From: Daejeonella sp.
Lineage (GTDB): Bacteria > Bacteroidota > Bacteroidia > Sphingobacteriales > Sphingobacteriaceae
Direction: 5' to 3'
Length of the DNA stretch: 64,000 nt
Assembly: GCF_030695525.1 (NCBI RefSeq)
Contig: NZ_JAUYSS010000012.1
Coordinates: 1 to 64,000, forward strand
The notes beneath the pieces are model-generated. The model was not told where the DNA came from, made no database searches, and saw only the letters and a list, made by a program, of their open reading frames with translations. The translations under genes and the position numbers were made by a program. Below are positions 3,538-22,956 of this stretch, piece after piece (the first letter of the stretch is position 1; the number at the start of each line of letters is the position of its first letter).

Positions 3538-4035
3538 TCACCTCCTCCCACCCCATAAGCACCATCCCACTAAAATAAGCACAAGCACTATAATTAATAC
3601 ATTCACCAGATGCCAGCCCTTCTTTTCCAAAACTCTGGAGTTTGATACCTCCGACTTCTTGCTTTCATACTGTTCTTCATAATTCATGTCTCTTTGCTTT
3701 TCTGCCAGAAGCACTGCACTATCAATCCGGCTTATTACCCTTCTCAGCTTTCCGGAAAGTTCAATCCTTTCGGCACTGCCTTTGAACCCATGTTGGGCTG
3801 AAAAGCTGAAGGTGTCGGCAGGGAAAATAATGACTGAATATTGCTCATTGGTAGTGTCGGTCAGAAGGATCTTCCGTTTAGCTTCAAGCTTATCATTCAT
3901 CAAATCCTGCATCCGAATTTCCGATTGTGCTGAGACCGAACTTTCAAATTTTTGCCTATTCAGCTTCCGGGTGCTGCATGAGCTGAAATTGATCAGGATC
4001 AGCAGCGCCAGAAGTTTAATTACAATTGCTTTCAT
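3538..4035 (-). CDS. Lipoprotein with C-terminal TM helix; u-spanin-like
   Basis: The protein has 165 residues. It begins with a lipoprotein signal whose lipobox cysteine is in NFSSCSTRK (about residue 20). The middle is charged, about 110 residues, with a beta-like part (YSVIIFPADTFSF) and a helical part (LRRVISRIDSAVLLAEKQRD). It ends with one strong TM helix (LVNVLIIVLVLILVGWCLW) and basic residues. An outer-membrane lipid anchor at one end and an inner-membrane helix at the other is the architecture of unimolecular spanins, which fuse the two membranes in phage lysis. It is the last gene of a five-gene operon, 11 bases after the CHAP endolysin-like gene, where a spanin would be expected. 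I know no homologue by name, so the role is inferred. Confidence 0.6.
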   Translation of the reverse strand: MKAIVIKLLALLILINFSSCSTRKLNRQKFESSVSAQSEIRMQDLMNDKLEAKRKILLTDTTNEQYSVIIFPADTFSFSAQHGFKGSAERIELSGKLRRVISRIDSAVLLAEKQRDMNYEEQYESKKSEVSNSRVLEKKGWHLVNVLIIVLVLILVGWCLWGGRR

Positions 4036-4046
4036 GATCTTGTTTT

Positions 4047-4958
4047 TTAAGGCTGCCGGATATACCGCGCAACCTGGTAAATAGATTTGACGGGCCGCCG
4101 CTTGCGGTACACCCCGTCCCCCTCCCTGCCACCTGAAACATTCGTATTTCCCTCAACCGTAATCAACCAGGTTCCATCCCATTGATCAATAAAACCGACA
4201 TGGGCAATGCGCTTTTTGTCAGAGAAGTAGATACCGAAAACGTCACCGATGGTGGGTTGCCAGTTATCTGTTGCCTGTTGCCTGCTATCAGTAGTCCGTT
4301 GCCTGTTACCTGTTGTCTGTCTGATCGGATAGGTGTATGCTATGCGTGAGTGTCTTGACCCGATAGCTATCGGGTCCTGGCTCCCTGCCTGACCGGCAGG
4401 CAGGTTGGCTCCTGGCTCATATGCCCTGCTTTCAACTTTCAGCTTTCTGCTTTCAGCTCTTGTCCATATTACTTTACTAGACTTAAACAGATCCGGGGAC
4501 CAGCCCGTTCTGGGGTTATCGACATTGTCCTGCCCGTAAACCCAGCAGATAAAAGCCGCGCACCAGGGCTGACCCTTTTTCAGGTTCACATAGTGCAGAT
4601 ATTCTTCAACCTGCGGACCTGAATTAATCCCCTTCTCACGAATACCAATTTGGGAATCGTAGATTTTTTTGGTTGTTACCCGGCCATCGGATTGCCGGAA
4701 TCTGAGGTCAGTTGTCTGAAAGACAGATTTCACTCCAGGTAAAACTCCTTCCTGATACTCTTTATGTATTGGGCCCTGAGTGATGGCCGTTGAGCCTTGA
4801 GTGGTTTGTTTCGAAAATTCCGCTTCACCCTTTCTGCTTTCATCTTTCAGCTTTATGCTTTCCCCTTGCCGGGAAACTAAATAATCCCTGCCAGCGTAGC
4901 CACAAATGAATAGAGCAGCAGCAGATAGAATCCCAAATAGATAATTACTTTTTGCCAT
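4047..4958 (-). CDS. CHAP-domain peptidoglycan hydrolase (endolysin-like) with repeat-derived insert
   Basis: The protein has 303 residues. The N-terminus (residues 5-22) is one hydrophobic segment, a signal or signal-anchor. The CHAP catalytic Cys133 is in PWCAAFICWVYGQ and His253 in RIAHVGFIDQW, followed by an EGNTN...EGDGVYRK block common in Bacteroidota phage lysins. CHAP enzymes cut peptide or amide bonds of peptidoglycan. Between Cys and His, residues about 167-235 are an unusual insert made of repeat DNA: a palindrome-coded LPAGQAG, a 20-base palindrome, and a run rich in Q, T and R from a short tandem repeat. A related unit also lies near residues 34-46. The 5' end overlaps the holin-like gene by 82 bases. 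The start at 4958 was chosen because it gives the complete hydrophobic N-terminus. Confidence 0.8.
   Translation of the reverse strand: MAKSNYLFGILSAAALFICGYAGRDYLVSRQGESIKLKDESRKGEAEFSKQTTQGSTAITQGPIHKEYQEGVLPGVKSVFQTTDLRFRQSDGRVTTKKIYDSQIGIREKGINSGPQVEEYLHYVNLKKGQPWCAAFICWVYGQDNVDNPRTGWSPDLFKSSKVIWTRAESRKLKVESRAYEPGANLPAGQAGSQDPIAIGSRHSRIAYTYPIRQTTGNRQRTTDSRQQATDNWQPTIGDVFGIYFSDKKRIAHVGFIDQWDGTWLITVEGNTNVSGGREGDGVYRKRRPVKSIYQVARYIRQP
4257..4325. repeat. Short tandem repeat (tgttgcctgt-like units) inside the CHAP gene
   Basis: At least five imperfect copies of a unit like (c/t)tgttgcctg or ttacctgttg occur in tandem. They are translated in the antisense direction as a T/R/Q/D-rich run in the CHAP protein. 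The tract keeps the reading frame open. Confidence 0.7.
4357..4404. repeat. Two adjacent palindromes inserted in the CHAP coding region
   Basis: The first is a perfect 20-base palindrome (gacccgatagctatcgggtc, 4357-4376). The second is an inverted repeat cctgcc...ggcagg (4384-4404), the kind translated as LPAGQAG in many Bacteroidota proteins. A short direct repeat, tcctggctc, flanks the second one. Both are dispersed repeat types seen between genes in this phylum; here they sit in frame within a gene. Confidence 0.75.
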
Positions 4959-5242
4959 GATTGTAAGGATTTAAAATTCCGTTCAAAATGTTCTTTGGAG
5001 TATTCAGCAAATACCGGCCAGATGATATTGATGAGCCACCAGGTCACTGCCTTAAAAGCAAGCAGTGACAGAATAGCCATGATCACCGCACTCAATGCGC
5101 CGGGATCGATTGGAGCCGACGTTATGTCGATCCACCTGGATAAGCCTGGAAAATACAGGAACAGAAAGAAGGCTGAAAAAATAAGCAGATGTTCCTTTTT
5201 TAAAATGTTTTGCGGTATACGCAAATTGATGAGCTGGTTCAT
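4877..5242 (-). CDS. Three-TM small membrane protein, holin-like
   Basis: The protein has 121 residues with three predicted TM helices: about 19-35 (HLLIFSAFFLFLYF), 48-74 (ending TWWLINIIW) and 97-120 (VIIYLGFYLLLLYSF). A short charged loop lies between helices two and three. This size and topology match class I holins, which let an endolysin reach the wall or trigger lysis timing. The ATG overlaps the stop of the upstream gene by four bases and its 3' end overlaps the CHAP gene by 82 bases, so it is translated as part of that operon. Holin sequences are too diverse for recognition by sequence alone, so the assignment rests on topology and neighbours. Confidence 0.55.
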   Translation of the reverse strand: MNQLINLRIPQNILKKEHLLIFSAFFLFLYFPGLSRWIDITSAPIDPGALSAVIMAILSLLAFKAVTWWLINIIWPVFAEYSKEHFERNFKSLQSWQKVIIYLGFYLLLLYSFVATLAGII

Positions 5243-5652
5243 AATTGTTCTTCTTTAGGTTTAACAAATTCCCTTGTACCCGGGTCTGTTTCTTGCTCCC
5301 TTTCAGGTATAAATGCTCCTGATGTATTAATCATCAGGCTTTTAAACAGTCTGATCAGCAGCTGGGTCACTTCCATGATTTGTTCCTGCCCAACTCCCCG
5401 GCTTTTAAGTTTCTTTAGTGAAAATGCGGTCCTGAGTCCCTGAAATAAATGGTTGAACTCAGCTACTGACAGAAAACGAAAAATCAAAGCTATATGCCAA
5501 CCCCTCAGGCAGGTCTGTTTCTTTTGAAGGAATTGGTTAATCGCAGCCTTGCCGGCTCTGCTGTGTCCGGGAAGCTTTTCGATTAGGATCTGTGCGGCCT
5601 GGCGTTTAAACTCCGGCAGCATTTTACTATAATTTATGATTTGATTATCCAT
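5239..5652 (-). CDS. Uncharacterised 137-aa protein of the lysis-like operon
   Basis: I do not recognise the family. The protein is soluble and mostly helical, without signal peptide or TM segment. The N-terminal half is basic (FKRQAAQILIEKL, KAAINQFLQKKQ) and the C-terminal tail is acidic and proline-containing (EREQETDPGTREFVKPKEEQ). It lies between a 189-aa unknown protein and the holin-like gene, with a four-base stop/start overlap to the latter, so it is very probably co-translated with the lysis-like genes. Confidence 0.7.
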   Translation of the reverse strand: MDNQIINYSKMLPEFKRQAAQILIEKLPGHSRAGKAAINQFLQKKQTCLRGWHIALIFRFLSVAEFNHLFQGLRTAFSLKKLKSRGVGQEQIMEVTQLLIRLFKSLMINTSGAFIPEREQETDPGTREFVKPKEEQL

Positions 5653-5752
5653 GATAATTGTTTTTAAAGTCCCGCATGTGCGGAATAAATTTGAATGAAT
5701 GTTAGTTTAAAGAACCGCCGCGTATTCGCGACGGTTCTAATCAACGTGATAC

Positions 5753-6322
5753 TTAGTCGATCACTTTCTCCAGCACAGTTTGGTTGCCGGGCAGGTCAGT
5801 GGCTGTAAAAATGATTTTACTGCCGTTAGCCGCTGCATTAACCGCTGTACAGGTGTAGATCCAGTCCAGGCCATTATCCGACTGTACCGCATCTCCCTCT
5901 TCCAGTAGACTTAAATCTGCGTTTATGATCTTAACTTTTACTCCGATAACCTGGAAGTCGTCAATCACACTTACGCTGATTTCATCGCCAATCGCCCCGG
6001 TATAGGTTGAAAGGTTTACGTCCTCATCAAACTCAGGAGCCAGTTGGTAATCCTTGAAAGCCCTGTTATAGGCACTTTGACCCAGGCGTGCTACAGCCTG
6101 ATAGCCCGCCTTTAACAAGGGGTCAAGAATTGCCTTTTTGGCATACTGAGCTGCTTTTTTAAAGCGTCTTTGTATGCCCAGTTGTAAGTCTGTAGGCGGT
6201 GTACTGAATGGTTTTGGCCGGTCGGCCACAATGGTTTTATTCGCTCTCTGGCGAAAAACCAGCAGATCACCGATCAGGCCGCTCAGCCCATGGGTGATCA
6301 CATTGTTTTTAGATTTTGCCAT
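5753..6322 (-). CDS. Uncharacterised 189-aa protein, first gene of the lysis-like operon
   Basis: I cannot name the family with certainty. The protein starts MAKSKNNVITHGLSGLIGDLLVFRQR, a Gly-rich opening that resembles a group of Bacteroidota proteins of unknown function (the DUF6266 style), but this is a weak resemblance. Residues about 35-85 are a basic helical stretch (RRFKKAAQYAKKAILDPLLK). The C-terminal half is beta-rich (ISVSVIDDFQVIGVKVKII, SKIIFTATDL) and could be an Ig-like or phage tail-type fold. There is no signal peptide. The gene is the first of a minus-strand operon; about 100 bases separate it from the next gene. Confidence 0.65.
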   Translation of the reverse strand: MAKSKNNVITHGLSGLIGDLLVFRQRANKTIVADRPKPFSTPPTDLQLGIQRRFKKAAQYAKKAILDPLLKAGYQAVARLGQSAYNRAFKDYQLAPEFDEDVNLSTYTGAIGDEISVSVIDDFQVIGVKVKIINADLSLLEEGDAVQSDNGLDWIYTCTAVNAAANGSKIIFTATDLPGNQTVLEKVID

Positions 6323-6747: not shown

Positions 6748-7398
6748 ATGAACAAAGAAATCCTAGACCATAAACGGAATTCACCATCAGTTAGCAGGCA
6801 AAAAAAGGAGAATTTAATTAAAACAAAGCTCATCCACACTATGGGTGAAATCATCAGGAAAAATGGTTATTCCGGGCTGAATATTAGCAGAATAGCTCGC
6901 ATAGCACATATACCTATAAAGGTTGTCTACCGGCATTTTGGATCATTTGACAAGCTTATTGAAGCTTATGTATTACAAAAAGATTACTGCAAAGACTCTT
7001 CATCGGATACTCAAAACCATACCTCAGTTGACCTGGAAGCAGATATCTATAGCATCCTGGAAAATGAATTCGATTTATTTTTTAATAAACCTGAAATGCA
7101 ACAACTCATTATAGGGGAATTATGCGGCTGTAAGGCAATGAAAAATATTTCCATTACCAGGGAGAGGGGAAACGAAAAACTCCTAAAACAAACGGATGAT
7201 TATTCTGAGGGTAGTGATTTTAATCTCAGGGCGTTAAGTGCGCTATTGTCTGCCGGATTACATTACCTTATGTTACAAGGACCGGAAAAGTGTTTATATG
7301 GGGTCAATATCTGGGATCCAAATGATCGGGAAGAAGTTAAAAGAACTATTAGACTACTCATTAAAACTGCATTTCGTATGGTTAAATCAAAGAAATAA
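6748..7398 (+). CDS. TetR/AcrR-family transcriptional regulator
   Basis: The protein has 216 residues. The N-terminal DNA-binding domain is typical of TetR: a helix (LIHTMGEIIRKNGYSGLNI), then the HTH with ISRIARIAHIPIKVVYRHFGSFDKLI (residues about 47-75). The C-terminal 130 residues form the variable ligand and dimer domain and give no clue to the ligand. It is divergent from the lysis-like operon (425-base gap), so that operon is a possible target besides its own promoter; this is inference. Confidence 0.85.
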   Translation: MNKEILDHKRNSPSVSRQKKENLIKTKLIHTMGEIIRKNGYSGLNISRIARIAHIPIKVVYRHFGSFDKLIEAYVLQKDYCKDSSSDTQNHTSVDLEADIYSILENEFDLFFNKPEMQQLIIGELCGCKAMKNISITRERGNEKLLKQTDDYSEGSDFNLRALSALLSAGLHYLMLQGPEKCLYGVNIWDPNDREEVKRTIRLLIKTAFRMVKSKK

Positions 7399-7406
7399 AA
7401 ATGCAG

Positions 7407-7700
7407 TTATTTCCGAACCCCTTTAATTTCCGAATCTGCCAATGCCTTTATCATCATTGCTTTTTCCACATCTACCCTTTTGTACAGATCTTTCTTGCCC
7501 AGTTTTACAGGAATGAGGATTTCATCTTTTTTTAAGCGGTATAATGTTGATTTACTGATATGGAACATTTCCTTCATATCACAGGTGTCAAGCCATTTTT
7601 TGGGCCCGCCCCGTTCAAGCAGTGCATCCAGTGCTCGCTGTATGCGCTTTTGCCCCTTTTCAAGCTCCATTAGTTTCTGAAATATCTGCCCCTGGTCCAT
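7407..7700 (-). CDS. Small HTH (excisionase/MerR-like) DNA-binding protein
   Basis: The start was set at the ATG at 7700 (MDQGQIFQKL), because earlier codons overlap the upstream gene and the truncated duplicate at 9654 begins at the same codon with conserved sequence. The product is about 97 residues. The N-terminal half is a coiled helix (LMELEKGQKRIQRALDALLERGG); the C-terminal half is a winged HTH of the excisionase type (MKEMFHISKSTLYRLKKDEIL, then KKDLYKRVDVEKAM). Such proteins are common beside integrated elements and regulatory loci in Bacteroidota. It follows the 107-aa gene by 10 bases, so the two form an operon. Confidence 0.8.
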   Translation of the reverse strand: MDQGQIFQKLMELEKGQKRIQRALDALLERGGPKKWLDTCDMKEMFHISKSTLYRLKKDEILIPVKLGKKDLYKRVDVEKAMMIKALADSEIKGVRK

Positions 7701-7710
7701 AATCACACCA

Positions 7711-8034
7711 TTAACAGTTAATTCTATGAGCGTACACCACAAACTTGTGGAATAGGATGGCTTTTGCCAATATCGATTCTCCCGGAATGTCCCGTTTTAG
7801 AAGATCCGGAAAATAGTAATAGGAACGCCCTCCGAGCCCGGTGCAAGTGACCAATACCTTTTGTCGGTAATAGCATAAGCTACGAAGGCTAATTTTCAGG
7901 TTCTCTTCCGGTAGTCCCCAGTCCTGCAGGTTGAATCCAGCGACAGACTGTTCACAGGCTGACCTGTTTAGAGCCGATTGCTGGTTCCTGACAATTCGTT
8001 CAAGGAGTTCTATGATGCGTTCCAGTTCTGACAT
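7711..8034 (-). CDS. Uncharacterised 107-aa protein upstream of the HTH gene
   Basis: I do not recognise the family. It starts with a short coiled helix (LERIIELLERIVRNQQ), like the start of its partner, followed by a compact mixed domain with YYRQKVLVTCTGLGGRSYYYFPDLL. There is no signal peptide or TM helix. It is the first gene of a two-gene operon with the HTH protein, and its start faces the region with four operator-like palindromes, so it may be controlled by them. Confidence 0.65.
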   Translation of the reverse strand: MSELERIIELLERIVRNQQSALNRSACEQSVAGFNLQDWGLPEENLKISLRSLCYYRQKVLVTCTGLGGRSYYYFPDLLKRDIPGESILAKAILFHKFVVYAHRINC

Positions 8035-8080: not shown

Positions 8081-8273
8081 TTATTCACAGCATGAATAAG
8101 TTATTCAAACCGATGAATAAGTTATTCATGGGCAAAAATTGTCTCTTAAAAACAAGCGGAAATCCGTCCAGAAAAATAGAATAAATTTTTGCTTTCAGAT
8201 CAGGCATTTTCATCGGTTTGTAATGGCAGATGTTGGATATGAATAATTTATTCATGCATGAATAAATTATTCA
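8081..8273. promoter_or_regulatory. Four TGAATAA-N-TTATTCA operator-like palindromes
   Basis: Four 15-base palindromes of the form 7-1-7 lie at 8093-8107, 8114-8128, 8240-8254 and 8259-8273. Only the central base varies (G, G, T, A). Starts within each pair are 21 and 19 bases apart, about two helical turns. A further half-site TTATTCA is at 8081-8087. They lie in the 414-base gap between the divergent genes at 8034 (minus) and 8449 (plus), the place for an operator shared by both promoters. Binding by the XRE protein encoded at 8449 is plausible but not shown. Confidence 0.75.
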
Positions 8274-8448: not shown

Positions 8449-8919
8449 ATGAAAAATTTCAACTTTGGAGAAAACCTCCGAATGCTGCGCATTTACAAAA
8501 ATGTTTGTCAGGAAGGTATGGCCGCTGGGCTTAACATCTCACAAGCTTCCTATTCAAGAATCGAAACATGCCCTGATGTTCCGCAGGTTCAGGTAATAAA
8601 CAAACTCGCCGATACCCTTGGTGTCGCGCCTAAAGATTTAGTATCAGCGAACTGGTACGCCAAAGCAGTGAACAGTGGTTACGGTAAAAATAAACGTTCA
8701 GTATTCTTAATCAGCAAAAATGGGCAGAAAGCCTATGGCTTCCTTCTGGCCGTCGCAGCCTGGGATTCAACTTTGGGTACAGCAGATGGTGCGAAAATAG
8801 AATCTATGGATTTCAGACTTTTTCTAGGATCTATCTTCTTTCTTGTAGCATTCTTTATTTATTATTTTACAGTGAAGCAAACAGATGTGAATCTTGAAGA
8901 CGATACCCCGCTGTTGTGA
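8449..8919 (+). CDS. XRE-family HTH protein with C-terminal TM helix
   Basis: The protein has 156 residues. Residues 1-65 are a Cro/C1-type HTH (LRMLRIYKNVCQEGMAAGLNISQASYSRIE, then INKLADTLGV). A linker follows, and one TM helix near the C-terminus (FLGSIFFLVAFFIYYF, about 124-142) ends in an acidic tail. A DNA-binding domain tethered to the inner membrane suggests a membrane-linked switch, as in other one-component membrane regulators. Four palindromic sites lie in its upstream gap. The target genes are not known. Confidence 0.75.
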   Translation: MKNFNFGENLRMLRIYKNVCQEGMAAGLNISQASYSRIETCPDVPQVQVINKLADTLGVAPKDLVSANWYAKAVNSGYGKNKRSVFLISKNGQKAYGFLLAVAAWDSTLGTADGAKIESMDFRLFLGSIFFLVAFFIYYFTVKQTDVNLEDDTPLL

Positions 8920-9807: not shown

Positions 9808-10368
9808 ATGGAAAGCTCCCTTCTATTTCAAACCCTTGCTTCGTACTGTTCTCCCAGCATGGAGGAAAAAGAATTGCTGAAGTCTTTTTTGAAGGAAGAA
9901 GAATTTCCGGCTGGTAAACTTTTACAGCGCCAGGGACACCCACCGAACAAGATTTGGTTCATTTCAGAAGGATTTGTCATTGGAAATTACCTGGAACAGG
10001 GCGAACAGCACACCTCTCTGTTTTGCCCCCCGGGTGAATTTGCTGTTTCCCTGCCTGCTTTCATTCAGCAGGGAATATCTCCTGAAAACCTGATTACCCG
10101 GCAGGACAGTCTCCTACTCTCACTCAGCTATGAAAATCTCAGGGAACTCCGGAATATACCCTCACTGTCCAGAGCGTACAAAGGGATCATTGCCCACTAC
10201 CAGGAAGAAAGCCTGCAGCGTATGCGCTCTTTATTATATGACAGCCCCGCTGTTCGTCTGCAAAAACTGCTTGACCGATACCCCGGTCTATTAAAGTCTG
10301 CTTATCCGGAAGAAGTAGCCTCCTATCTCGGTATTAGCCGCCGTACGCTTTACAGGATGCTTTTATAA
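9808..10368 (+). CDS. Crp/Fnr-like transcriptional regulator
   Basis: The protein has 186 residues. An N-terminal cNMP-binding-like beta-barrel spans about residues 20-115 (FPAGKLLQRQGHPPNKIWFISEGFVIGNYL); the Arg and Glu contacts of true cAMP binders are not evident, as in most Bacteroidota paralogues. A short C-terminal HTH follows (YPEEVASYLGISRRTLYRMLL). It is 58 bases upstream of the MauE-like gene on the same strand, so it may control the MauE/small peptide pair. The ligand is unknown. Confidence 0.8.
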   Translation: MESSLLFQTLASYCSPSMEEKELLKSFLKEEEFPAGKLLQRQGHPPNKIWFISEGFVIGNYLEQGEQHTSLFCPPGEFAVSLPAFIQQGISPENLITRQDSLLLSLSYENLRELRNIPSLSRAYKGIIAHYQEESLQRMRSLLYDSPAVRLQKLLDRYPGLLKSAYPEEVASYLGISRRTLYRMLL

Positions 10369-10426
10369 AAATCCATTTGTGCCATTTGGCACAGAATCAG
10401 GCCTGATTGCAGCCGAACTTAGATCT

Positions 10427-10906
10427 ATGCAAACATCAGACAACATACAAACCTCATTTAAGCCATCCTCCAAACCTGGAAACATCGTTCAGGTAATTTC
10501 TTATCTGCTTATCCTATTATGGGTATATGCTGCAGCGAGCAAGCTGATCGATTATGATACAAGCAGGGCCCAAATGCTGAATCAGATATTTTCAAAAAGT
10601 ATCGCAAATGTTCTTGTTTGGGCTGTGCCCTTTACTGAATTGCTTGCAGGCAGTTTACTGATCTTCCTTAAAACCAGACTGGCCGGCTTATACGCCTCGC
10701 TCCTCCTGCTCATCAGTTTTACAATATATATCGGCCTGGTAATGAATAATGTTTTTGGCCGAATTCCCTGTTCCTGCGGGGGTGTATTAAATAAAATGAC
10801 CTGGGAGCAACACCTGACATTCAATCTGGCCTTTATGCTGTTAACCTCTACTGCAATTCTTTTTTCTGCTCATTTAAAGGAAGGAGGGTTTATGGGGAAG
10901 GAGTAG
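10427..10906 (+). CDS. MauE/DoxX-like inner-membrane redox protein
   Basis: The ATG at 10427 (MQTSDNIQ) is preferred; an in-frame upstream ATG at 10379 adds 16 atypical residues. The product has about 159 residues with four TM helices (for example ISYLLILLWVYAAASKLIDY and LYASLLLLISFTIYIGLVMN). The family's marker is present: a loop with RIPCSCGGVL (Cys-Ser-Cys-Gly-Gly). MauE-type proteins pass electrons for disulfide formation in periplasmic proteins. The next gene encodes a small secreted protein with two cysteines, a possible substrate. A TlpA-like thiol protein is convergent just beyond. Confidence 0.75.
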   Translation: MQTSDNIQTSFKPSSKPGNIVQVISYLLILLWVYAAASKLIDYDTSRAQMLNQIFSKSIANVLVWAVPFTELLAGSLLIFLKTRLAGLYASLLLLISFTIYIGLVMNNVFGRIPCSCGGVLNKMTWEQHLTFNLAFMLLTSTAILFSAHLKEGGFMGKE

Positions 10907-20652: not shown

Positions 20653-22203
20653 ATGGCCAATAAATCAATAAGCATGAGTAAGATCAGACAGATTCTACGG
20701 TTACACAGTCAGGGCGAGAGCAACCTGGCTATTTACCGGTTGACGGGTGTTTCCCGCAATACGCTTAAAAAGTACATTAGAGACTACAATACCCTCAATC
20801 TAAACATGATTGAGATAGAGGATCTCTCAGACCACGATCTGGAAGAACTCTTTACCCAGTTCAAGCCCCATCAGCAGAAGCGAAGCGATAAGGCTCAGGA
20901 TCTGTATGCCTTGTTCCCTGAGATTGACAAGCAGCTAAAGCGTAAAGGGATTACCCAGCAACTGATGTGGGAAGAGTATTATGCCCGTCATCCAGACGGA
21001 CTTAAGCTTAGCCAGTTTGGTTATCACTATGCCTTGTGGAAACAGCAGGTGAGTCCTACGATGCACATGGACCATAAAGCAGGTGATAAGCTCTATGTGG
21101 ATTATGCCGGGGAGAAGCTTCATCTTGTGGATCCTGATACCGGAGAACTGCAGGCGGTGGAGGTTTTTGTAGCTATTCTGGGATGTAGCCAGCTGACTTA
21201 TGTAGAGGCAAGTTATAGCCAGCAAAAGGAAGATTTGATCGATAGCTGTGAACGCACGCTTCATTACATTGGCGGTGTCCCTAATGCCTTAGTGACGGAT
21301 AACCTGAAGTCTGCGGTAACCAAGTCCAGTAAATACGAACCAGTTATTAATGAGTACTTCGCTGATTTTGCTGACCATTACAGTATAAGCGTACTTCCGA
21401 CAAGAGCATATAAGCCCAGGGATAAGTCATTGGTTGAGGGTGCTGTCAAGATTATCTACACCCGCATATACGCTAAGCTCCGTGGCAGAACCTTCCACAC
21501 CTTAACTGATCTGAATCAGGCCATCTGGGCGGCTCTGGAGGAGCATAACAACACCTTGTTGCGTGGAAGGCATTATAGCCGCAGAATGCAGTTTACCGAA
21601 GTTGAAATGCCCGTGCTGAATGCGCTGCCTCCGCTTAAATATGAACATAAGAAGCAGGTATTCGCAACCGTTATGAAGAATGGGCATGTCTGCCTTGGCC
21701 CGGATAAACACTATTACAGCGTTCCCTACCAGAACATCGGAAAGAAGGTAAAGCTCCTGTATACCAATCATCGGGTGGAAGTGTACTACAATTATGAGCG
21801 TATTGCGTCTCACGACCGTATGCGTAGTCCTTACGGATATACCACCCTGACCGAGCATCTGGCCTCTACCCATCAGTTCGTTGGTGGATGGACTCCGGAA
21901 AAGTTCCTGTCCTGGGCTGAATCTATTGATACGACAGTCAGGCAGTACATCTATGTCATTCTAAACAAGAAACAGCACGTAGAGCAGGCTTATAAATCAT
22001 GTGTGGGCATACTGGCCCTGAACAAGAAATACGGGAGTCAGCGACTGATCAATGCCTGTAAACGCGGAATAGAGTACGACATGTACAACTACAAAAGTAT
22101 CGAGATGATCCTTAAACGCGGACTGGATCACCCCGAAGAACAGGAAACTCTTCCTCTGATGCCCCTGCATAAAAATATTCGCGGAGAACATTATTACAAC
22201 TAA
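20653..22203 (+). CDS. istA: IS21 transposase IstA
   Basis: The protein has 516 residues. The N-terminus has an HTH (KIRQILRLHSQGESNLAIYRLTGVSRNTLKKYI). The central DDE integrase core (about 140-300) is seen in LYVDYAGEKLHLVD, ALVTDNLKSAV and the region around PRDKSLVEGAVKIIY; the C-terminal part is the usual IstA beta-barrel (GPDKHYYSVPYQNIGKKVKLLY). It cuts and joins the element's ends. The istB gene follows by 18 bases. The frame is intact, so the element may still be active. Confidence 0.95.
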   Translation: MANKSISMSKIRQILRLHSQGESNLAIYRLTGVSRNTLKKYIRDYNTLNLNMIEIEDLSDHDLEELFTQFKPHQQKRSDKAQDLYALFPEIDKQLKRKGITQQLMWEEYYARHPDGLKLSQFGYHYALWKQQVSPTMHMDHKAGDKLYVDYAGEKLHLVDPDTGELQAVEVFVAILGCSQLTYVEASYSQQKEDLIDSCERTLHYIGGVPNALVTDNLKSAVTKSSKYEPVINEYFADFADHYSISVLPTRAYKPRDKSLVEGAVKIIYTRIYAKLRGRTFHTLTDLNQAIWAALEEHNNTLLRGRHYSRRMQFTEVEMPVLNALPPLKYEHKKQVFATVMKNGHVCLGPDKHYYSVPYQNIGKKVKLLYTNHRVEVYYNYERIASHDRMRSPYGYTTLTEHLASTHQFVGGWTPEKFLSWAESIDTTVRQYIYVILNKKQHVEQAYKSCVGILALNKKYGSQRLINACKRGIEYDMYNYKSIEMILKRGLDHPEEQETLPLMPLHKNIRGEHYYN

Positions 22204-22221
22204 ACCTTAACACTAAAACAA

Positions 22222-22956
22222 ATGAATACAGAAACGTTAGAAAAAATGCGTAAAATGAAGTTTTATGGAATGGCAAGAGCCATGAAGATGAGTCTGGAAG
22301 CCGGTAAAGATGAACCGTTCACGGCAGACGAACTCGTATCTCATCTCATTGATGCAGAATGGGACGACCGGCATAATCGGAGTATTGAACGGCACATCAG
22401 TAATGCCCGCTTCAGGTATAAAGCTGCTGTGGAGCAGATCGTTTATGACGGAGAACGAACGCTAGATCAGAATCAAGTGATGAGGCTTGCTGAATGCGAT
22501 TTTATTAATCGGAAGGAGAATGTTCTGATCACCGGCAGTACCGGTATCGGAAAGTCATTCCTTGCCTCAGCTCTGGGACATCAGGCCTGTCTGATGGGTT
22601 ACCGGACGATGTACTGCAATGCGACTAAACTCTTTTCTCACTTAAAGATGGCCAAAGGTGATGGGTCTTATAACAAGGAGATTGCTAAAATTGAAAGGCA
22701 GCATCTTCTGATCATTGATGACTTTGGAATACAGCCCCTTGATGGTCATAACCGCTCAGCGCTCATGGAAATTATCGAGGACAGGCATGCTAAAGCCTCT
22801 CTGATCATCACTGCACAGGTACCTGTAACGATGTGGCACGAGATAATTGGGGAACGGACTATCGCTGATGCGATCCTTGATCGCATTGTACACGGATCTC
22901 ACCGGGTGGATTTGATCGGAGAATCCATGAGGAAAAGAAAGTCGTTGCTGAACTGA
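22222..22956 (+). CDS. istB: IS21 helper ATPase IstB
   Basis: The protein has 244 residues. The AAA+ ATPase motifs are Walker A GSTGIGKSFLA (about 105-112) and Walker B LLIIDDFGIQPL; a DnaA/DnaC-like C-terminal part follows (RTIADAILDRIVHGSHRVDL). IstB selects target DNA and stimulates IstA. The frame is intact and complete in length for the family. Confidence 0.95.
   Translation: MNTETLEKMRKMKFYGMARAMKMSLEAGKDEPFTADELVSHLIDAEWDDRHNRSIERHISNARFRYKAAVEQIVYDGERTLDQNQVMRLAECDFINRKENVLITGSTGIGKSFLASALGHQACLMGYRTMYCNATKLFSHLKMAKGDGSYNKEIAKIERQHLLIIDDFGIQPLDGHNRSALMEIIEDRHAKASLIITAQVPVTMWHEIIGERTIADAILDRIVHGSHRVDLIGESMRKRKSLLN

Follow-up and report, generated by a model that had tools for sequence, protein, structure and literature searches.

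The stretch of DNA analysed here, referred to as the window, comprises the first 64,000 nucleotides of contig NZ_JAUYSS010000012.1 of Daejeonella sp. (assembly GCF_030695525.1). Close to its start lie five consecutive genes, preceded by a group of small regulator-like genes and a palindrome array (Table 1). An earlier note, made from the letters alone, had described five tightly packed minus-strand genes with overlaps, and the open reading frames were all found where it had placed them. The genes for the 137-aa and 121-aa proteins overlap by 4 nt and those for the 121-aa and 303-aa proteins by 82 nt, the 303-aa and 165-aa frames are separated by 11 nt, and the sole loose join in the operon is a 100-nt gap between the P189 and P137 genes. 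Among the five, only the CHAP gene was confidently recognised by database profiles (as phage endolysin). The closest named relatives of the window genes are in Daejeonella and other Sphingobacteriaceae. P137 has relatives in only three other loci (L120, L132 and L146), a minority of the modules described below, and its dN/dS is 0.14.

Table 1. Coordinates of the operon and of the regulatory features upstream of it (positions in the window)
Feature	Position	Strand	Length	Description
LIP165	3538..4035	-	165 aa	unimolecular-spanin-like lipoprotein, C-terminal TM helix
CHAP	4047..4958	-	303 aa	CHAP-type peptidoglycan hydrolase (endolysin), N-terminal hydrophobic export segment
TM121/CHAP overlap	4877..4958	-	82 nt	out-of-frame gene overlap
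TM121	4877..5242	-	121 aa	holin-like membrane protein
P137	5239..5652	-	137 aa	small soluble-looking protein
P189	5753..6322	-	189 aa	DUF6266-type protein, divergent; candidate cargo
TetR gene	6748-7398	+		located between P189 and the two HTH genes
H111	7407..7742	-		HTH_17/excisionase-like regulator (HTH_17 E 1e-5, just under cut-off)
H107	7711..8034	-		second small regulator-like gene, overlaps H111; no Pfam match
TGAATAANTTATTCA palindromes	8091..8273			four exact palindromes, putative operator array between the divergent XRE and H107/H111 genes
XRE gene	8449..8919	+		XRE-type repressor-like gene (HTH_31 4e-8, RstR-like 3e-8)

The contig begins at the window start, which limits the downstream view of the module to 3.5 kb. 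This part holds an ordinary-looking host gene, an 808-aa open frame on the minus strand (3-2426) truncated by the contig start; an IS21 transposase with its IstB helper is encoded farther away, at 20653-22956. According to the earlier note, genes for phage heads, tails or integrases are missing from the vicinity, and this held: the 10 neighbouring proteins matched only regulator, excisionase and esterase PHROGs, and phage structural or integration genes, by which a prophage would be recognised, were not found near the module. A conjugation locus, which the note had named as a possible different role, was not seen among the neighbours either; conjugation or other machinery was rejected because neighbours of such kind are absent.

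The CHAP protein matches PHROG endolysins (2e-13). The Cys133/His253 pair to which the note had pointed is invariant in 22 diverse aligned relatives, as are Glu269 and Asn271, and the catalytic Cys and His expected of a CHAP endolysin are thus present in the sequence. An N-terminal hydrophobic segment was detected in 163 of 190 CHAP relatives. SAR endolysins reach the wall without a holin, and by analogy this segment would allow the CHAP enzyme to reach the wall independently of TM121. The window gene also contains in-frame DNA repeats (4260-4470 and 4820-4862) of the CTGCTTTCAACTTTCAGCTTTC type, the CAACAGGCAACAG type and the palindrome TGCCTGACCGGCAGGCA. They occupy a variable loop and the N-terminal linker, leaving the active site intact, and similar peptides occur in other copies.

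The note's description of the 121-aa product as a small protein with three TM segments is right for the family, since three hydrophobic segments were counted in 122 of 150 members, and slightly uncertain for the window copy, which at the same threshold scores four, two of them adjoining. Among 201 Sphingobacteriaceae genomes, 49, spread over 13 of 25 genera, encode TM121 relatives; this genome has five copies, and another has as many as nine. The idea that the TM121 family extends across the phylum was rejected: a sample of the phylum yielded just members of the family and one weak match. One further copy lies at a contig end (L116, G000:C58:1-8000) and is 98% identical to the window TM121; it is accompanied by a CHAP gene whose product is 76% identical to that of the window, LIP165 was not found there, and the copy is possibly a recent duplication.

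The DNA of the TM121/CHAP overlap encodes both the last TM helix of TM121 and the export segment of CHAP. An overlap of exactly 82 nt was found in 17 of 29 DUF6266 modules and 13 of 15 FN3 modules (both defined below), in 5 of 12 prophage loci and in 13 of 42 viral loci, and most loci with overlaps of other lengths retain the same frame relation between the two genes. Host modules lacking the overlap often have a DUF6266 gene between TM121 and CHAP. When the overlap was recoded synonymously, 357 of 4154 stop-free versions were equally hydrophobic in the second frame. Second-frame hydrophobicity is thus partly expected from the first frame, and the evidence drawn from the overlap is therefore restricted to its exact length and frame.

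For LIP165, the note had claimed a lipobox and a terminal TM helix. Both features are present in 77 of 118 relatives compared with 3 of 365 background ORFs, the lipobox Cys is invariant in 19 of 19 aligned relatives, and the C-terminal TM helix, the absence of which would have spoken against the claim, is conserved. Unimolecular spanins are further defined by the lack of periplasmic cysteines (PMC6139136). Ectodomain Cys was found in 7 of 110 LIP165 relatives compared with 154 of 257 background proteins, and the window protein has none, so that all three anatomical marks of a unimolecular spanin (N-terminal lipobox, C-terminal TM, no periplasmic cysteine) are in place. In these respects LIP165 resembles T1 gp11, which likewise adjoins genes for a holin-like protein and for an endolysin bearing an export segment; the likeness is one of anatomy rather than of demonstrated sequence relation. 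LIP165 thus appears to have the u-spanin design, from which a role in membrane fusion is predicted. It is missing from 10 of 36 DUF6266 modules.

In IMG/VR contigs, the CHAP profile detected at least 420 viral relatives, of which the best 80 loci were inspected. These contained 48 TM121 relatives, immediately upstream of CHAP, and 28 LIP165 relatives, likewise typically adjoining it; the gene order matches that of the host cassette, often including the 82-nt overlap, and the viral contigs that were checked carried terminase, portal, head and tail-type proteins near the cassette. By homology, TM121-CHAP-LIP165 is a genuine tailed-phage lysis cassette of the type found in Bacteroidota phages, and the note's reading of the three genes as holin, CHAP endolysin and u-spanin is borne out, as regards anatomy and origin, by the same trio in phage contigs and by the anatomy of the lipoprotein. 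Unlike the cassettes of these phages, the host copies lie apart from phage neighbours and contain or adjoin DUF6266 or FN3 genes.

The recurrent neighbourhood has TM121, CHAP and LIP165 preceded by a regulator of the HTH_17 type and by a single DUF6266-type gene or a pair of them. Of 76 distinct chromosomal loci, 36 were paired with DUF6266 and 18 with an unrelated FN3 protein of about 210 aa; roughly a dozen FN3-type loci are in 'bacterium A37T11' alone. At least two phage-like neighbours in the examined flanks were found in none of the 54 DUF6266/FN3 loci as against 14 of the 22 others (Fisher p=5e-10), where neighbours were scored against the proteins of the 80 viral loci and phages unlike those could escape. 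An ordinary prophage was rejected on this ground. In the CHAP tree, phage and host labels were separated far better than in shuffles, and keeping the host-module CHAPs together raised the lnL by 38.9 over that of the free quick tree (AU p=0.91). A single origin of the host-module CHAPs as one clade is thus favoured by the sequences, if not proved. Comparison of the window with its nearest orthologous locus (L120) gave dN/dS values of 0.09-0.28 in four genes (P189, 0.09); over the module genes in general the values were mostly 0.08-0.3, with 0.41 and 0.61 in single TM121 and LIP165 comparisons. The module genes are under purifying selection. Pattern scans were precluded in two alignments (A1 and A6) by the diversity of their sequences. 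The suggestion that this could be a domesticated module of the host is upheld by the pairing of most host copies with DUF6266/FN3 genes and not with phage genes, and we consider it very probable that the operon contains a domesticated phage-type lysis cassette.

Residues 2-96 of P189, its N-terminal domain, are homologous to DUF6266 (hhalign 97.9%). P189 itself gave no Pfam match at E<=1 and did not reach the gathering score for DUF6266 (PF19781), whereas the partners in other modules are full DUF6266 members by Pfam (up to 4e-64). The structural model of P189 (pLDDT 87.7) ends in an Ig-like beta-sandwich (Z about 8-10) differing from the C-terminal half of the canonical DUF6266 model (pLDDT 92.4), which has an FN3 fold (Z about 11). 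Canonical members fill the slot of P189 in most modules. By sequence comparison, the product of the first operon gene belongs to the DUF6266 type, with which the cassette is constantly associated; the note had overlooked this, as it had the putative regulator switch upstream and the many copies of the module across the family. DUF6266 genes are found at several different positions around the cassette, and they also stand alone in other families of Bacteroidota and in this genome, which points to a role or a mobility independent of lysis. Such genes of the DUF6266/P189 type, lacking the lysis cassette, lie elsewhere in this genome at L002-L005 and L356-L363. None of the best 80 viral loci contained DUF6266, and no relatives were detected when viral contigs, phage records and plasmids were searched with single proteins; the best viral fold match was a poor fit (rmsd 9.5) and was not used. 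The name DUF6266 is mentioned in none of the open-licence papers covered by the literature search, mostly as titles and abstracts.

At loci L261-L321 (bacterium A37T11, Parapedobacter, Sinomicrobium), the protein of about 210 aa with a C-terminal FN3-like end replaces DUF6266 and sits between CHAP and LIP165. A sequence link between this protein and DUF6266 was not found by hhalign, and the two are therefore treated as analogous. N-terminal hydrophobic segments are rare in both partners (13 of 116 in the P189 family, 1 of 18 in the FN3 partner). That the partner proteins mostly have no such segment although their C-terminal domains are FN3/Ig-like was counted in favour of release; FN3 domains are known also from cytoplasmic and phage-tail proteins.

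An HTH gene was found upstream in 21 of 36 DUF6266 modules as against 0 of 14 prophage loci, and a profile search placed relatives of H107 upstream of several modules. Relatives of the XRE gene lie near 11 of 36 DUF6266 modules, as against 0 of 15 prophage and 0 of 80 viral loci. The palindromes TGAATAANTTATTCA have no other exact copies in the genome; the same palindromes are present upstream of a related XRE gene in another Daejeonella locus (L245). They are the putative operators of the XRE gene product. Two observations count against such a switch: among the XRE loci, the palindrome was seen only in the window and in L245, hence is not universal, and a TetR gene separates the HTH genes from the operon. 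Farther upstream, a Crp-like regulator (9808-10368) and a MauE/DoxX-like membrane protein (10379-10906) are encoded, which occur near 13/36 and 9/36 DUF6266 loci, respectively, near 5/18 FN3 loci each, and near 0/15 prophage cassettes.

In type 10 secretion systems (T10SS), a lysis cassette that is not part of a phage releases cargo proteins lacking signal sequences (PMC10847048). The module resembles those of Serratia, Yersinia entomophaga (YenLC) and Salmonella in that holin-like, endolysin and spanin-like genes lie outside a phage, beside regulators. Some of those systems encode cargo lacking signal sequences alongside; here the neighbouring gene encodes a candidate cargo of a kind that mostly has no N-terminal hydrophobic segment. 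By anatomy, though not by activity, it has the marks of such a system: a clustered trio, a location outside phage, and descent from phage lysis genes. It differs in belonging to another phylum, in having CHAP and a one-piece spanin instead of Rz/Rz1, in its candidate cargo (DUF6266/FN3), the release of which is a prediction, and in its many copies per genome. By this analogy, an XRE repressor bound to the TGAATAANTTATTCA array would keep the module off in most cells, and derepression would lead a few cells to produce the DUF6266-type protein. TM121 would then open the inner membrane or depolarise it, the wall would be cut by the CHAP enzyme after export via its own N-terminal segment, and LIP165 would fuse the inner and outer membranes. 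The burst cell would shed the DUF6266/FN3 protein, the Ig/FN3-type domain of which would act outside. We infer lysis, release and the cargo role of DUF6266/FN3, and give this whole mechanism, a captured phage lysis cassette serving self-lysis and release in the manner of type 10 secretion, nearly even chances of being correct. Against it count the DUF6266 modules that lack LIP165, the DUF6266 genes that stand alone, and the occurrence of FN3 domains in cytoplasmic and phage-tail proteins. Somewhat more tentative is the wider proposal of a Bacteroidota counterpart of the T10SS, with one old capture, up to about a dozen copies per genome, a phage-type repressor, and death of a subpopulation that releases modular DUF6266/FN3 proteins.

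The trio could instead have been tamed for a use in cells that stay alive, either exporting the protein encoded beside it or remodelling the wall. Non-lytic secretion has been claimed for the Salmonella T10SS (PMC13284979), and the spanin-like gene is missing in the 10 DUF6266 modules mentioned above; yet most loci retain the full trio, with active-site and lipobox residues invariant, and the Yersinia and Serratia systems were observed to lyse (PMC10847048). We consider this use unlikely. We regard it as quite unlikely that the genes are the lysis cassette of a small selfish element or phage satellite, freeing its particles or DNA, with DUF6266 in a structural or maintenance role. The excisionase-like HTH and RstR-like XRE genes and the several copies per genome in differing contexts would fit such an element, but integrases or transposases are not recurrent among the neighbours, copies were found in none of the plasmids or viral contigs searched, and none of 19 loci had a tRNA nearby, on which ground tRNA-associated integration was rejected.

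Alternatively, the module may kill the cell upon phage infection or induction of a competing prophage, with the DUF6266/FN3 protein as sensor, trigger or immunity factor and not as cargo. A phage-like repressor with its putative operator array and multiple diversified copies would be compatible with such altruistic death; against it, the Ig/FN3 architecture of the partners includes no recognised sensor domain, and identity as a defence system was rejected because the PADLOC matches were weak and none was convincing. This reading appears distinctly unlikely. That the loci are decayed prophages, the lysis genes of which survived by chance, is hardly credible: the cassette is phage-derived, but 54 loci repeatedly show the same non-phage partners and none of them has two or more viral neighbours, the genes are under purifying selection, and phage and host are well separated on the CHAP tree.

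Returning to self-lysis and release, protein release by lysis cassettes is described, in the surveyed literature, from enterobacteria, and the open-licence papers on lysis cassettes, spanins and T10SS in Bacteroidota, represented mostly by titles and abstracts, describe no such system. If the proposed mechanism is true, a conserved multicopy module of Sphingobacteriaceae would extend lysis-cassette release to another phylum and would provide the first functional lead for DUF6266. It would also be a natural example of a host capturing phage lysis genes and then retaining them in the long term.
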